Shown piece by piece: positions 1,936 through 19,661 of a stretch of 64,000 bases of DNA (position 1 is the first letter of the stretch; each line of letters begins with the position of its first letter). Source of the DNA: Acinetobacter sp. A47 (GTDB lineage Bacteria > Pseudomonadota > Gammaproteobacteria > Pseudomonadales > Moraxellaceae); NCBI RefSeq assembly GCF_000805455.1, contig NZ_JSUS01000001.1, positions 248,001-312,000 of the forward strand. Reading direction: 5' to 3'. A program made the translations under genes and the position numbers. The notes beneath the pieces are model-generated. The model was not told the origin of the DNA. It did no database searches and worked only from the letters and a program-made list of their open reading frames with translations.

Positions 1936-2655
1936 ATGGCATTAACAAGTGATTTTCAAAAACTGGAGGTTGATGGATTAATCTCTTTATTCGAGCTGGA
2001 TGCTTCACATTTTGGTATTGGAGTTTTGCGTTTTCATGGCCTAATGGCTCAGCGCAATGGCGAAGAATGGAGACCTAACATAATTTGGCAAGGTCAAGTA
2101 TATGAACCGATTTCAATTGAAGCAAAAGGGATGGAAATGCGCTCTGATGGACGTGCTTCAGCGCCTATATTAACCATTGCAAATAATATCAATGGAATCC
2201 AAGGTGCTATTTCAGCCTACTGTCTGCAATATGGTGATTTTGCTGGAGCAAAGCTCAAAGTCATTACAACGCTTGCTAAATATCTGGACGCTGCAAACTT
2301 TCCGGACGGCAATCCCACAGCTTCAAATGAATCAAAAGAGCAGCATTGGTATATCGAGCAAAAGATTTCTGAAAACCCGATGCAAGTCGTTTTTGAATTA
2401 TCAAACCCGATAGATTTTGAAGGTTTGCGTATTCCAGCGCGTCAGATTACCTCACTTTGTGATGAAGCCTGTAAAGGCCGTTATCGTGGTGAAGTTTGCG
2501 GATACATCGGTACAAAATTTTATACGGATAAAGATGAGCCTACTACAGATCCTGCTTTGGATCGTTGCTCTGGGCGTTTAAAAGCTTGTCGCCTTCGTTT
2601 CGGTGAAAATTCACCTTTACCTTTCTGCGGTTTCCCTGCATCTAACTTAATGTGA
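1936..2655 (+). CDS. Phage minor tail protein L (lambda gpL-like)
   Basis: A 239-residue protein of the phage minor tail L family. The C-terminal third has spaced cysteines (LCDEACKG, EVCGY, DRCSG, KACRLRFG, LPFCGFP). The lambda homologue is known to hold an iron-sulfur cluster through such cysteines, so the same is inferred here. It would work in tail-tip assembly between M and K. Its stop codon overlaps the start of the next gene (TGATG), indicating translational coupling. No frameshift or truncation is visible. Confidence 0.88.
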   Translation: MALTSDFQKLEVDGLISLFELDASHFGIGVLRFHGLMAQRNGEEWRPNIIWQGQVYEPISIEAKGMEMRSDGRASAPILTIANNINGIQGAISAYCLQYGDFAGAKLKVITTLAKYLDAANFPDGNPTASNESKEQHWYIEQKISENPMQVVFELSNPIDFEGLRIPARQITSLCDEACKGRYRGEVCGYIGTKFYTDKDEPTTDPALDRCSGRLKACRLRFGENSPLPFCGFPASNLM

Positions 2656-3407
2656 TGAATATGAGACTGACTTTAAAAATTAAGAAAGCAATTGCATTAC
2701 ATGCGAAGGATAGTTACCCGTCAGAGTGCTGCGGCGTTATTGTTAATCGAGAATACATTCCTTGTCGCAACATTGCTAAATCTAATGATCAATTTGAGAT
2801 TGATCCAGTGGATCTGGCCGCAGCCGAAGACAAAGGCGAGATTACAGCTTACGTGCACAGCCACCCTGATGGTACCACGACTGCATCGGAGCTAGATTTA
2901 AAGCAAATTGAATTGCATGAAAAGCCGTGGGTCATTTGCTCATATCCTGATTTAGATTTTGAAGTGTACAAACCCTATGGATATCGCGCCCCTTTATTGG
3001 GGCGTAATTATTTTCATGGATGGCAAGATTGTTACTCACTTATTCAGGATTTTTACGAACGTGAGCTTGGAATCAACTTGATTGATTTTGAGCGTGCGGA
3101 CGCGTGGTGGGAAGATCCAGAGCACGCATCACTTTATCTTGAAAACTATCAAAAAGCAGGCTTTTACGAAGTCGATAGTCCACAGTATGGCGACATGATT
3201 ATTTGCCGTGTTGGACGAACTGAACACCCGAATCACGCTGTACTTTGGCTGGGTGATCATTGGGATTTGAAATCTGAAGAAACCGATCCGTGCTTTGGCA
3301 ATTCATTGATTCTGCATCACCCGTATGGCCGTAAATCCGTGCGCGAAATCTATGGCAAACAATGGCTCGATAGAACCGTCAAAATTTTAAGACATCGCGA
3401 TATTTAA
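2655..3407 (+). CDS. Phage tail assembly protein K: JAB metalloprotease plus NlpC/P60 hydrolase
   Basis: About 250 residues with two domains. The N-terminal half is a JAB/MPN+ zinc metalloprotease with an early Glu (PSECCGV) and the motif HSHPDGTTTASELD. The C-terminal half is an NlpC/P60 peptidase with a candidate catalytic Cys in WQDCYSLIQDFY and His in NHAVLWLGD. This is the layout of lambda gpK, needed in tail-tip assembly and possibly for peptidoglycan processing at entry. GTG 2652, ATG 2655 and ATG 2661 are all in frame; 2655 overlaps the L stop and is preferred. Confidence 0.88.
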   Translation: MNMRLTLKIKKAIALHAKDSYPSECCGVIVNREYIPCRNIAKSNDQFEIDPVDLAAAEDKGEITAYVHSHPDGTTTASELDLKQIELHEKPWVICSYPDLDFEVYKPYGYRAPLLGRNYFHGWQDCYSLIQDFYERELGINLIDFERADAWWEDPEHASLYLENYQKAGFYEVDSPQYGDMIICRVGRTEHPNHAVLWLGDHWDLKSEETDPCFGNSLILHHPYGRKSVREIYGKQWLDRTVKILRHRDI

Positions 3408-13728: not shown

Positions 13729-13750
13729 ACAATGAAACAGAAATTACGTC

Positions 13751-13771
13751 ACCGCCGCAAGGCGGTTTTTT
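13751..13771 (+). terminator. Hairpin between holin and endolysin
   Basis: ACCGCC-GCAA-GGCGGT with a T-run, 21 bp before the endolysin start. The same 13-mer ACCGCCGCAAGGC occurs at 3432-3444, but there without the completing arm. Confidence 0.7.
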
Positions 13772-13791
13772 ATTATCAAAAGGAAATCAAA

Positions 13792-14358
13792 ATGGATAGA
13801 ACACCATTTTTTATCGAAGCACGTGCCTTACTGGGTGGTAAATTGACCCAGCATCAAGTTGACAGATTTAATGAACTCCTTGATGAGTTCCAAGGCCAAA
13901 GCCCGGGCAATAAGAGCATGACAACCAGCCCAGTGGGCATCAATTTGATTACCAGTTTTGAAGACTTAAAATTAACAGCGTATCTCTGCCCAGCAAACGT
14001 TTGGACGATTGGTTTTGGTACCACCGTTTACCCGACCGGCACCCGGGTTAAACAAGGGGATAAATGTACTGAAGCCCAGGCCAAAGCGTACTTTACTCAT
14101 GATTTAAAACGCTTCGAGCGGGCAGTTAATGGATCTGTTGGTGTACCGCTTACACAAAATCAATTTGATGCGCTGGTGAGTCTGACTTACAACATCGGTG
14201 AAGGAAATTTTACATCTTCAACACTTTTGAAAATGCTTAATGCCGGGAATTACCGGGGTGCTGCGGATCAGTTTCTGGTATGGAATAAATCAAAAGGACA
14301 GGTCTTAAATGGTCTCGTTCGCAGACGTAAAGTGGAGCGTGAGCTATTTTTAAAATAA
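13792..14358 (+). CDS. Phage endolysin, GH24 lysozyme
   Basis: A 188-residue muramidase. An N-terminal ~45-residue segment (LGGKLTQHQVDRFNELLDEF) precedes the GH24 domain. The catalytic region reads SFEDLKLTAYLCPANVWTIG: Glu, then Cys nine residues later, then Thr six residues further. It thus has the Glu-8aa-Cys-5aa-Thr form of the usual Glu-Asp-Thr triad, a known variant of this family. NQFDALVSLTYNIGEGNF and RRRKVERELF are standard GH24 motifs. ATG 13792 with AAAGGAAA upstream is preferred over in-frame ATG 13732, which lies before the hairpin. No signal-anchor is seen, so export is expected through the holin. Confidence 0.9.
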   Translation: MDRTPFFIEARALLGGKLTQHQVDRFNELLDEFQGQSPGNKSMTTSPVGINLITSFEDLKLTAYLCPANVWTIGFGTTVYPTGTRVKQGDKCTEAQAKAYFTHDLKRFERAVNGSVGVPLTQNQFDALVSLTYNIGEGNFTSSTLLKMLNAGNYRGAADQFLVWNKSKGQVLNGLVRRRKVERELFLK

Positions 14359-14493: not shown

Positions 14494-14631
14494 TTAACGC
14501 GGTCCGCAACCTACAAAGCCACAACCATGGCCTCCAATGAAGCCTGTTTCAGATTTAGGTGTAAAATCAGCTGCCATAGCACCAGTAGAAACTGCTAATA
14601 GAGTTGCAACCGTTAAAAGTACTTTTTTCAT
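14494..14631 (-). CDS. Small secreted peptide, 45 aa, Cys/Gly-rich C-terminus
   Basis: This short ORF has a GAGG site 8 bp before its ATG. It starts with a textbook Sec signal peptide (MKKVLLTVATLLAVSTGAMA, then ADF). The mature part is about 24 residues and ends GGHGCGFVGCGPR with two cysteines, so a disulfide or metal site is possible. It resembles small exported hypothetical proteins of Acinetobacter, but no function is known to me. It sits opposite the lysis genes and may be a prophage accessory gene. The ~190 bp upstream are very AT-rich and probably hold its promoter. Confidence 0.6.
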   Translation of the reverse strand: MKKVLLTVATLLAVSTGAMAADFTPKSETGFIGGHGCGFVGCGPR

Positions 14632-15894: not shown

Positions 15895-16319
15895 GTGGGT
15901 TTATCCTACTCTAAAGAGTTCTGACCAGTTTGTTAAATAAGAGGGGGAGCGGCGGTTCTGGTTCATCTACCAGATGTGACCTATTGCGCATTTGGTCGGA
16001 AAATGCTCATCATGAAATTATTGGCTTACAGTGTAAACAAGCTGAATTAATCTTAAAAATTAGGCCATTTTATGTTTTATTTATTAAAAATCTGTACCAA
16101 GATATTTCTAAGTTATCAATATTATACTTATCCACAGAGTTAACTATAAGCCTTTTATAACGGCTTTGTTATGCTATGTCCTTGTCAATTCAACAGTTAA
16201 TACATGAAAAAAAAATTAGTAGAATGTCAAGGATTGATCTACTTAACAAAATACCTTACTGTACTGAATATCAAGTAAAAATTATTTGATACCTAGGGTA
16301 TATAAAGATATTTATAAAT
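15895..16319. other. AT-rich stretch without a supported gene
   Basis: Contains a 76-codon open frame (15930-16160 +) without a ribosome binding site or recognised motif, and a weak hairpin at 16148-16168. The right-hand ~50 bp carry the promoter candidate of the RNA described next. No other supported feature. Confidence 0.5.
16286..16314 (+). promoter_or_regulatory. Candidate sigma70 promoter for the structured RNA
   Basis: TTGATA at 16286-16291, a 17-bp spacer and TATTTA at 16309-16314 would start transcription near 16320, at the point where base composition changes. The -10 match is moderate; TATAAA at 16313 is an alternative with long spacing. Confidence 0.35.
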
Positions 16320-16722
16320 CTTAGAAGAAGGCTGCCACTTACTTTCGAAATTTTGGTCAAGGACGAAAGCAAGTGGCGTTGTATAAAACTGCGAAGCTAG
16401 ACGAAGTCTAACGAAGCTAAGTTTCCAACTTTTAAACGTAAGTTTTAAGCGGTAATTTCTACCGTACAAACTAACGACGAAGTTTAAAAGCGGAAAATAA
16501 GCTGAGCTTTATAACTTATGGTTTTAATGTACCAAAAGAAGACGACGTTTAGCAACGCTTATTTAACGGAGTATTGGTACGATGACTATTTTAGTCATGT
16601 TATTGCGACTGATCGGCATACTTGCTGATATGTTGCAAATAGCCGATTTCATTATACGCTGACCATAACTAGCGTACGTTAATACAATCGAAAATCGCTT
16701 GTTCCGACAGGCGATTTTTTTG
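16320..16722 (+). ncRNA. Candidate large structured non-coding RNA (~400 nt)
   Basis: No coding frame fits, but the stretch is packed with hairpins and is less AT-rich than its left flank. Helices seen: 16334-16347/16364-16377 (14 bp, one A-C mismatch); 16398-16402/16406-16410; 16429-16437/16482-16490 (9 bp) enclosing 16450-16454/16460-16464; 16499-16502/16506-16509; 16529-16535/16574-16580 (7 bp); 16582-16588/16592-16598 (7 bp, TTT loop); 16612-16617/16642-16647; 16655-16660/16671-16676; and a terminator. Positions 16391-16420 are three 10-nt repeats each holding CGAAG. I do not recognise the family. It could be a phage-borne ornate RNA or a regulatory RNA. Confidence is for a transcribed structured RNA, not for any function. 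Confidence 0.55.
16691..16722 (+). terminator. Intrinsic terminator ending the structured RNA
   Basis: A 12-bp stem AAAATCGCTTGT / ACAGGCGATTTT (one G-U pair) with loop TCCG, followed by a T-run on the plus strand. It ends 3 bp before the stop of the minus-strand SRAP pseudogene. Confidence 0.8.
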
Positions 16723-16724
16723 TT

Positions 16725-17354
16725 TCACCTTTGACTTATTTCTTCCTTAGGCTTTGCGGTGTATTCGTTTAGCGGCATATCAACTAAAAAATCCAGTGCT
16801 TGATCATGGCTACATGTAAGCCAGTCTTTACGTCGACCTTTCGGAATAACGACAATTGAGCGCTTTTCATCGTCAGGCGCATGGAATTGCTTCATGAATG
16901 GATGCATGTCTGCATTGATCGTTAACATGCTCATCGATACGACTGGTTCGCCGTTTACAGTGGCGTACTCATAAATACCAGCAACAGTAAAGGGCATATC
17001 ATCCTGACGATAGATACCGTACTAATTTGCCTTACCATCGATATACTTTGGCTCAAAAATAGTTTCAACTGGTATTAAGCAAAATTGATTCTTTGCCCAA
17101 GCGTGGCGAAAGCTTGGCTTTGATGCAACGGTTTTAGAACGGGCATTATGAGTATTGCGTATTTTTTTAATATCGTCCGCCCAGTTTGGTACCAGACCGA
17201 ATCTGGCTGGTCTCCATTCAATGCCGTGCTCGGTCGAGATAAGAATAGGGCCGCCGTAGCCGGGATATAGATCCGCTTTGTAATCGAAAGTAGGTTCAAG
17301 CAGATTAAGTAGCTGTGCTCGACTTCGAGCTATAGGTTCGTAGTTAGCGCACAT
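16725..17354 (-). pseudogene. SRAP / YedK (HMCES) protein gene with an in-frame amber codon
   Basis: SRAP proteins crosslink to abasic sites in single-stranded DNA through Cys2. The frame starts MCANYEPIARSRAQ with the catalytic Cys2, a GGAAATAAA ribosome binding site and the conserved NTHNARSKTV region. A TAG at 17022-17024 interrupts it after FEPKYIDGKAN. Translation resumes in the same frame with YGIYRQDD and GIYEYATVNGEP, and continues to the normal C-terminus at 16725. The total of 210 codons is the usual size for the family. A single substitution such as TGG to TAG would explain the break, so the gene is inactivated, suppressed or mis-sequenced. It lies in the prophage near the integrase, and SRAP genes are common mobile-element cargo. 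Confidence 0.82.
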
Positions 17355-17969: not shown

Positions 17970-19328
17970 TTAGCTATTTACTGCATTTTTTAAAATATTA
18001 TTATTGTGCTCAATCCACTTTTCTTGGATATTCCGTACTGATTTATTTTTTTCAAAATAAATTCTATTTTTAATTAAGGCTTTGGAAATATCAGATAGCA
18101 CAACATTTTCAATCATATTCATAGCTTTGCGCAGATCTTCAAAAGTTACCTGAACATATCCATCTGTGACATCATTATCATCATCTTCGGTGGTATGGTT
18201 GATAAGTTTCTTGATTGTATAGCTGCCAATTGCCAGACTGTTTGCGATTGTGCCGAAGGTTCTTCGCAAGTCGTGAAATGTAAATTGAATACCCGTAGTT
18301 TCTGTTATTGTATGTCGAGCTTCACGCTTATCAACGATATGTGAATCAGGTGTATCCCCAGCAAAAACATATTTATTCTTGCCTGCAAACTTCTTCCTTT
18401 CCTTCATGATGTACCAGAGCATATCACCCATTGGAAGAAGTAGATCTTCATGGTTTTTAGGATCTTGAATCTTTATAGTTCCATACTTCAAATCAACATT
18501 TGGCCATTCCAGTGTTTCGCCTTCTTCTCTACGAAATCCGGTTAAAATCAAGAGAAGTAAGAAATCCTGATTTGTATAACCTCTATGATTTGCATTTTGG
18601 TTGCCAGCCCACCAGGTGGTACATACAGCTAGAGACCAGTCATGTATCTGATCTGAACGGATATAGCCCTTACGGCGTTTTATCTTATTCCATTTCTTCT
18701 CTTTATAAAGCACCCCAACCGGGCTTTTTTCTGTAATAATTTTTTCGTCATTATCGTTATAAAGAATAGAGGCATTAAAGTTGTAGACTGCAGATAAAAA
18801 TTTCATTGCCAGATTAGCCTGGGCTAAACTTCGCTCTGATAGATCCATATGCTTATTTAACGCCATCTTCTGCGTAATTTCGGTAATCTTGATGTCTTTC
18901 CAATCACTAAAATAATCATTGGCGCAGCGATCATAGGCATCAATCGTACTATCACTTAGCTTTTTTTTGCTTTTATAGACTTCATAGGCTTTCCCAAGTG
19001 TTGGGATTAATTCATTAGATTCTTTTTCATTTTTAAAATCTGTTTTTAATTGGCGTTTCTGGGCAACTGGATCAATACCCTGATGCATCATTAACAATAT
19101 TTTTTTCGCTTCAGTACGGGCCTGTTCAAGAGTGTATACGCCGTGTTTACCAATAGACTTACGTTTATTGCGCCCATCTGGCATTCTCGTTTCAACAAAA
19201 TAGGTTTTAGATTTGGTTGCAATTAAACCAAAGCCGATTGTTACTGAGTCGCGATAAAATTTGCTTCCAGATTCTTCAAGAGGGATGCTGTCGATAAAGG
19301 TTTTGGTGAGTTTATATCTTTGGCTCAT
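17970..19328 (-). CDS. Prophage tyrosine integrase (P4-type, DUF4102 N-terminus)
   Basis: 452 residues from ATG 19328; an upstream in-frame ATG at 19361 is less likely. The N-terminal ~90 residues are the P4-type arm-binding domain (GFGLIATKSKTYFVETR, RKSIGKHGVYTLEQAR). The catalytic domain shows the active-site set: Arg in LTGFRREEGETLEW, HDLRRTFGT, LINHTTEDDD, and the Tyr in VTDGYVQ. It catalyses site-specific integration and excision. Its 5' end faces the 6S RNA gene ~150 bp away, so attachment is expected there. It is complete and could be active, although the prophage around it is not. Confidence 0.93.
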   Translation of the reverse strand: MSQRYKLTKTFIDSIPLEESGSKFYRDSVTIGFGLIATKSKTYFVETRMPDGRNKRKSIGKHGVYTLEQARTEAKKILLMMHQGIDPVAQKRQLKTDFKNEKESNELIPTLGKAYEVYKSKKKLSDSTIDAYDRCANDYFSDWKDIKITEITQKMALNKHMDLSERSLAQANLAMKFLSAVYNFNASILYNDNDEKIITEKSPVGVLYKEKKWNKIKRRKGYIRSDQIHDWSLAVCTTWWAGNQNANHRGYTNQDFLLLLILTGFRREEGETLEWPNVDLKYGTIKIQDPKNHEDLLLPMGDMLWYIMKERKKFAGKNKYVFAGDTPDSHIVDKREARHTITETTGIQFTFHDLRRTFGTIANSLAIGSYTIKKLINHTTEDDDNDVTDGYVQVTFEDLRKAMNMIENVVLSDISKALIKNRIYFEKNKSVRNIQEKWIEHNNNILKNAVNS

Positions 19329-19480
19329 GATGATTAAAAAGTACGAAACGATACACGGCAATATAGCACAATATTTTTGAAGCCTACTATAAGCCTATTT
19401 TTGATGAAATTAAGTTGGTGTAGAAAGGTTTTAAAATGGATTTATGTTTATAAGTTATTGTTTTTATATTAAAAATAATG
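19329..19480. other. Probable prophage/chromosome junction (att region)
   Basis: This gap separates the integrase start from the 6S RNA 3' end and should contain one attachment site plus integrase arm sites; a short direct repeat AAGCCTA occurs at 19380-19399. No matching core repeat was found elsewhere in the window, so att is inferred only from position. Confidence 0.4.
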
Positions 19481-19656
19481 CTCCAGAGGTGCCGCTGCAT
19501 GGTCGTTACCCTGAACCCGATGAGTTCAAGGTGGAGGTGACGTATACTTACTGGGTTTCCTACTCGAGGCAGGCATACACTCAAAATATACAGAACACAT
19601 CCATAAATTTAAGTATCGGCAGGGGACTAGACGTACTGGCGAACACCCTAGAGACA
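19481..19656 (-). ncRNA. ssrS: 6S RNA
   Basis: The minus strand reads GTCTCTAGGGTGTTCGCC and AGTCCCCTGCCGATA near the 5' end. Near the 3' end it has CACCTTGAACTCATCGGGTT, CAGGGTAACGACC and GCGGCACCTCTGGAG. This matches the known 6S consensus, and the two ends pair to close the long rod (CTCTAGGG with CCTCTGGAG). 6S RNA binds sigma70-RNA polymerase as a promoter mimic and lowers transcription in stationary phase. It lies downstream of zapA in the same direction, as in other gammaproteobacteria. The ygfA-type gene that often follows is displaced by the prophage. Confidence 0.92.
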
Positions 19657-19661
19657 GTTTT

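Follow-up and report, generated by a model that had tools for sequence, protein, structure and literature searches.

The window, meaning the whole 64,000-nucleotide stretch of Acinetobacter DNA analysed here, includes a prophage end at which a phage lysozyme gene (13732-14358) lies on one side and a SRAP gene and an integrase gene on the other. Between them, about 2 kb from the lysozyme gene, is the region 16320-16722. The SRAP gene (16725-17354, minus strand) is convergent and lies just outside the RNA described below; it is broken by an in-frame stop into ORFs 17022-17354 and 16725-16997, and the same break is present in the copy L004. Two further features were noted beyond the lysozyme gene within the prophage: a 45-codon ORF (14494-14631) with a signal-peptide-like start and no Pfam match, and a gene for a PAAR-motif protein (PF05488, 14973-15224). 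On the far side, the phage integrase gene, identified by Pfam, adjoins the 6S RNA gene (RF00013, 19476-19657; region 17970-19657), which makes ssrS a possible attachment site of the prophage.

The first-pass annotation had described 16320-16722 as a candidate non-coding, undescribed structured RNA of about 400 nt, not recognised as GOLLD or ROOL, with a candidate promoter at its left edge and an intrinsic terminator at its right. The structure was confirmed: the given strand folded at -128 kcal/mol versus -87.5 in dinucleotide shuffles (z -7.44; 0/100 shuffles). The opposite strand folded almost equally well (z -6.66; 0/100 shuffles), so the strand is not given by folding alone. A terminator scan of 801 bp returned a single intrinsic-terminator-like site versus 0.4 expected, at 16690-16719 on the plus strand, which agrees with the proposed terminator and marks the end of the predicted transcript. 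In nine relatives, the equivalent helix had 100% of cells paired and double changes in four pairs. The left-edge promoter fared less well, as the promoter scan of 801 bp gave four promoter-like sites versus 3.1 expected, none of them at that edge, and the nearest same-strand site was 16197-16225. An Rfam search, proposed in the annotation as a check, found no family at gathering score, and a permissive search of 16000-17000 gave four sub-gathering matches only; a covariance-model match to GOLLD or ROOL was absent. The source genome carries one copy of the RNA.

Homologues were found in genomes of the genus and in viral contigs. Sixteen distinct loci have an intact ORF within the RNA, in Acinetobacter genomes, one plasmid and viral contigs (the window, L003, L007, L009-L011, L013, L015-L018, L021, L052, L055, L065 and L066); L004 and L063, which come from a different collection, represent the prophage of the window itself and were excluded from the relatives. 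When 96 genomes were searched with the RNA, two matched, namely the genome of origin and, over 36 nt, G008 (taken as A. nosocomialis GNU001). What G008 shares is the 5' stem-loop: the loop is almost identical and the outer stem differs. A loop probe detected three of 175 genomes of the genus, including that of the window (the others being G008 and G184, the latter taken as Acinetobacter sp. Ac_5812), together with viral contigs L009, L010, L011, L013 and L015-L018. With a peptide profile, five of the 175 genomes reached E below 1e-8, two of which were further ones: G048 (taken as A. baumannii ACIN00150) and G051, where the copy sits on the A. piscicola plasmid pYH12207-1; L021 is a plasmid copy from this species. 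Viral contigs L055, L065 and L066 also encode the peptide. Since L021, L052, L055, L065 and L066 were retrieved by peptide searches, the ORF in these five is not an independent finding. In a seventeenth locus, on the A. lwoffii plasmid pALWVS1.2, IS982 splits the leader from the ORF and appears to have inserted a few codons into it.

Among 390 genomes of the order, a strong peptide match came from the window's own genome only, and two partial matches outside the genus (E 0.0018 and 0.0064; 14 positions) were dropped. Weak peptide matches (E up to 10), which accounted for 131 of the 136 matching genomes out of 175, were also dropped; a subset of them is one common 13-residue match within a 73-95-residue frame, and the rest were taken as chance. 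Viral loci L008, L012, L014 and L019 were discarded because they had the 16-nt pattern without the hairpin. No match was obtained by BLASTN of the window RNA against phage and plasmid collections, by BLASTN of the L003-type RNA against phages and plasmids, by a strict stem-loop pattern in genome contigs or by tblastn of the peptide against phages, and a DNA search in phages with the L052 locus gave three short matches that were taken as chance.

The claim that the region is non-coding did not survive. On the plus strand, 16582-16662 is a 26-codon ORF, MTILVMLLRLIGILADMLQIADFIIR followed by TGA, with a Shine-Dalgarno-like CGGAG (16567-16571) 10 nt 5' of the ATG. The first-pass annotation had named a conserved ORF across the region as evidence against its own proposal, and this one occupies 81 of the 403 nt. 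The ORF was intact in 11/11 loci retrieved via the 5' stem-loop of the RNA alone, and in the alignment of these loci it was the best conserved downstream part. For eight sequences, pN/pS over the last 18 codons was 0.05-0.35 in 28/28 pairs. In a test on six sequences (window, L003, L013, L021, L025 and L065), summed amino-acid identities reached 177 versus 108 (sd 14) in column shuffles (0/5000), and the variable columns at codon positions 1, 2 and 3 numbered 11, 1 and 17 of 18. The peptides are 26-30 residues long, with GRAVY values of 1.34-1.75 (TisB, 1.62), the L003 peptide being MLRLKVLKFLCFHLIGILADLIQIADFVIR. Residues A, D, Q, I, A, D, F and R were invariant in an eight-row alignment; in L065/L066, which lie outside this alignment, S replaces the first A. 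Pfam and NCBIfam searches with the peptide gave no match, short peptides being hard for such searches. Judged by these comparisons, the ORF is a gene for a small hydrophobic peptide whose protein sequence is under selection, as is expected of a type I toxin-antitoxin system. The region would thus most probably be an mRNA, its structured leader having a length of ~250 nt, rather than the stand-alone ornate RNA of ~400 nt that had been proposed.

The leader (16334-16581, plus strand) extends from a 5' stem-loop to the start codon. The stem-loop (16334-16377, plus strand) consists of 7 bp, an A.C mismatch and 6 bp around a 16-nt loop, AAATTTTGGTCAAGGA, and lies 155-239 nt 5' of the ORF start in seven loci. 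Over 11 sequences (7 distinct), 96.7% of its cells were paired and three pairs had double changes, a number reached in 27/500 shuffles. The covariation score was 0.176 versus 0.093 in shuffles (0/500), and lower at every slide; further pair types were not raised over shuffles in these 11 sequences. For nine L003-type RNAs, with a consensus structure from RNAalifold, double changes affected 14 of 94 pairs, of which 6 belong to the leader, 4 to the ORF interior and 4 to the terminator. The doubly changed cells numbered 24 versus 7.6 in shuffles (0/500; slid partners, 0-6), but as these RNAs are closely related and are themselves the source of the structure, the cells count sequences, not events. 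Further pair types (34 versus 31.7; 63/500 shuffles) were not exceptional. A second leader type, represented by the window and L007, shows double changes in 2 of its 113 pairs. The compensatory changes whose absence the first-pass annotation would have counted against its proposal were thus present, with covariation above shuffles.

From the stem-loop to the end of the ORF, z was -6.47 in the window and -1.9 to -6.3 in nine relatives. The z-scores of the ten leaders were -6.5 (window), -5.1, -2.2, -6.1, -1.9, -2.6, -3.8, -6.3, -3.6 and -1.9, folding being weak in L003 (-2.2), L010 (-1.9) and L066 (-1.9). The middles of the leaders differ and align poorly between types; the 5' stem-loop and the ORF are retained. 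The three CGAAG repeats pointed out earlier are present in the window, but the array is not kept in relatives: L007, the closest, has only two of them, and in the 300 nt 3' of the stem-loop L003-type leaders carry between zero and two CGAAG and no array.

At the start of the ORF, a hairpin formed by ATGACTA-TTT-TAGTCAT (16582-16598, plus strand) is predicted to bury the AUG, whose predicted unpaired probability in the window is 0.03-0.06; that of the Shine-Dalgarno-like region is 0.33-0.38 on average. The AUG is predicted to be mostly paired in the window, L007, L021 and L052 (unpaired, 0.03-0.27) and less so in L003, L013 and L065 with the leader present (0.25-0.74), being largely open in L003 and L065 (0.51-0.74) and intermediate in L013.

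Upstream of the RNA, a block TGTCAAGGATTGATC (16225-16239), 81-95 nt 5' of 16320, recurs in several relatives and is a candidate -35 region (TTGATC, N17, TACTGT at 16257-16262); this candidate promoter was absent from the promoter scan output. The block takes the form TGTCAA-n-TTG in the window, L007, L052 and L055, TGTAAAC-TTGA in L021 and AGTCAAGATTGAT in L003-type loci and L013, and a block of this type was not seen in L065/L066. A palindromic operator at TGTCAA-n-TTGA was disfavoured, because its spacer varies from 1 to 3 nt across loci, and two opposed candidate promoter elements fit better. In most loci, the -10 elements that would go with them looked poor by eye. Further upstream, a DnaA-box-like TTATCCACA (16128-16136, plus strand) lies 215 nt 5' of the conserved loop region. 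No second exact copy exists in the 64 kb of the window, a length in which 0.72 would be expected by chance. DnaA-box-like TTATNCACA on either strand was found within 500 nt upstream in 15/16 loci, L021 being the exception. Seven representatives had eight such boxes (seven with L065 replacing L066) versus 0.3 in shuffles (0/300 each). In eight loci (L003, L009, L011, L015-L018 and L066), two opposed DnaA-box-like sites lie between the umuD side and the RNA, at -204 to -420 from the loop.

We also looked for damage operators. A UmuDAb-type operator, TTGA-N4-GTnAC-N4-TCAA, in the form given in an excerpt of PMC11332147, was present upstream in 8/16 loci, on the umuD side and 337-475 nt from the loop. 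None was found within 500 nt upstream in the window, L007, L010 (259 nt only), L013, L015, L021, L052 and L055, and the window copy has no LexA box either. In L021, CTGT-N8-ACAG, the E. coli LexA form, occurs inside the best promoter-like site (TTGATA-18-TATAGT), between the hexamers and 81 nt 5' of the loop; the genus is reported to be without LexA. As a single such box in 16 upstream regions was met in 25/300 shuffles, it is suggestive only.

The gene neighbourhood recurs in the relatives. A SRAP gene (PF02586) converges from the right in 13/16 loci (the window, L003, L007, L009-L011, L013, L015-L018, L065 and L066; Pfam-checked, the window via its longer fragment) and is one long ORF in all 12 other than the window; it is lacking in L021, L052 and L055. 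On the left, a UmuD-like S24 gene diverges in 9/16 (L003, L009, L011, L015-L018, L065 and L066), and in eight of these nine a umuC-like ORF was seen by eye beyond it. L007 and L013 have a 208-residue gene in the place of umuD, the first 60 residues of which gave no Pfam match in L007. The window has neither a UmuD-like gene nor the 208-residue one, and the L010 contig is too short to tell. In the A. baumannii 17978 prophage, SRAP A1S_2014 and umuC A1S_2015 are DNA-damage induced according to excerpts of PMC3978071 and PMC7273328, data that concern the SRAP and umuC genes alone.

With moderate confidence, we interpret the leader, ORF and terminator as parts of one short mRNA for a 26-residue single-span hydrophobic peptide that would work like TisB or DinQ. 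The peptide would probably be a toxin in the manner of type I systems, linked to DNA damage and kept off by the structure of its own mRNA. This interpretation builds on the conserved ORF and its protein-level selection, the covariation, the terminator, the neighbourhood, the recurring DnaA-like box and the loop inversion described below. The RNA would be transcribed, its translation would be kept low by the folded leader and start-codon hairpin, and expression would rise on DNA damage, replication trouble or prophage induction, like that of the umuDC/SRAP genes that adjoin it in most loci. The peptide would enter the inner membrane and, at high amounts, depolarise it and stop growth.

The SOS-induced type I system tisB/istR-1 of E. 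coli is alike in its hydrophobic peptide of about 26-30 residues, its long leader, its DNA-damage neighbourhood and a similar-looking C-terminal Q-x-x-D pattern. It differs in that the window locus has no divergent IstR-1-type repeat and no SOS operator at its promoter, the UmuDAb-type sites of other loci being distant. To our knowledge, neither a stem-loop with an invertible loop nor a DnaA-like box is known in tisB. Kinship with TisB found no support: the family profile scored 24.0 on TisB, a score reached by 214/3000 shuffled TisB sequences, and PF13939 (TisB) gave no match, its model also falling below cut-off in an E. coli control. The peptide may work like TisB without being TisB. A second parallel, by description and not by sequence, is dinQ/agrB of E. 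coli, an SOS-linked single-span toxic peptide for which an excerpt of PMC3567139 reports one translated form among five transcripts. The ddrR-umuDAb regulon is from the same genus, and UmuDAb-type operators lie upstream on the umuD side in half of the loci; it differs in that the operator does not adjoin the RNA.

An RNA antitoxin, perhaps an opposite-strand transcript over the 5' stem-loop, would otherwise silence the peptide. Direct repeats of at least 11 nt between upstream region and RNA, as for an IstR-like divergent antitoxin, were found in 2/13 loci only (L009 and L013), both of them chance-like, and a search for antitoxin repeats in seven loci gave AT-rich 9-12-mers only. The 16-nt loop sequence AAATTTTGGTCRAGGA is retained in the window, L003-type loci and L013; L007 has it in altered form, as has the pALWVS1.2 leader L092, where it sits on an unrelated stem. 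The loops of L021, L052 and L065/L066 matched more closely as reverse complement. L021 scored 29 against the L003 loop in this orientation (0/1000 shuffles) versus 12 as transcribed (37/1000), and against the L092 loop L052 scored 18 (0/1000) versus 8 and L065 20 (0/1000) versus 6; comparisons with the window loop were weaker (L052, 228/1000 shuffles; L066, 94/1000). The loop is thus inverted in three lineages, on changing stems. A loop that flips while a stem stays suggests, from these alignments, a function available from either strand, be it that of a DNA site or of paired sense and antisense RNAs. The inverted loops are compatible with a cis antisense RNA. It is conceivable, though we lean against it, that the stem-loop is a DNA element within the leader (a cruciform or protein site), an account of the stem-loop only that is compatible with the other explanations. 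It would explain inversion in three lineages on a kept stem without an antisense RNA; the constant placement 5' of the same ORF, over the 155-239 nt range, suits an RNA element too.

The TisB-like toxin mRNA must also be weighed against a rather unlikely alternative, a prophage accessory membrane protein that does not arrest growth, acts for example in superinfection exclusion or lysis modulation, and has its expression tuned by the leader. Small hydrophobic peptides serve such roles, and the setting near a prophage end, with lysozyme on one side and SRAP and integrase on the other, fits; genes of lysis type were recognised by eye close to L052 and L055 as well. Indeed, the lysozyme gene at this distance suits a lysis or other phage role and counts against the toxin. 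However, the ORF also occurs on plasmids, and the frequent UmuD-like and SRAP neighbours point away from an accessory function. Less probable still is a dual-function RNA in which the leader is the regulatory RNA itself and the peptide a minor partner. The 5' stem-loop does persist over leaders with poorly aligning middles, and its loop recurs at other sites of Acinetobacter genomes and viral contigs, within hairpins that resemble terminators, but the leader middle varies by type while the ORF is kept, and a loop found in both orientations means that a trans target would need either strand. It is highly improbable that a large GOLLD- or ROOL-like non-coding RNA stands here on its own and that the ORF is incidental: GOLLD and ROOL are strongly folded, phage-associated RNAs, and the strong fold, length of about 400 nt and prophage location are similar here, but this RNA lacks an Rfam match and encodes a conserved peptide under protein-level selection.

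The toxin mRNA we favour is apparently, and provisionally, a peptide-mRNA family not described before. Among the literature matches listed, with subscription papers mostly outside the scope, this peptide or RNA is described in no title or opening of an abstract; a term search in the texts of PMC11472050 and PMC12802169 gave no toxin, prophage or umuD, and the excerpts of PMC11264685 contain no mention of Acinetobacter. The family adds a peptide without a Pfam or NCBIfam match and an RNA without an Rfam match. More speculatively, and we regard this as doubtful, the loci may represent a new class of toxin mRNAs on mobile elements of LexA-less Acinetobacter, in which a TisB-like peptide of independent origin is coupled to replication or DNA damage by DnaA and UmuDAb-type control and is silenced by sense-antisense pairing at a stem-loop usable in both orientations, whose loop could flip in evolution with its function intact. 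If the toxin interpretation holds, the mobile elements of an important hospital genus without LexA would bring along a growth-arrest peptide of their own, associated with DNA damage and frequently encoded next to genes for error-prone polymerases, with a bearing on drug tolerance following such damage, and the orientation-independent loop would offer a testable handle on the silencing of such mRNAs.

In other Acinetobacter genomes and viral contigs (L071, L077, L079, L084, L085 at about position 1501, L086:3241-3282, L089 and L091), the 16-nt loop was also seen, with 0-1 mismatches, within terminator-like hairpins of the form AAAAAGCCC-CG-loop-CG-GGGCT. A pattern allowing 2 mismatches had a high chance rate, its reversed control also matching many genomes. 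The L086 hairpin follows a 274-codon ORF (2400-3224), and an ORF of similar appearance (664-1473) occupies this position in L079.
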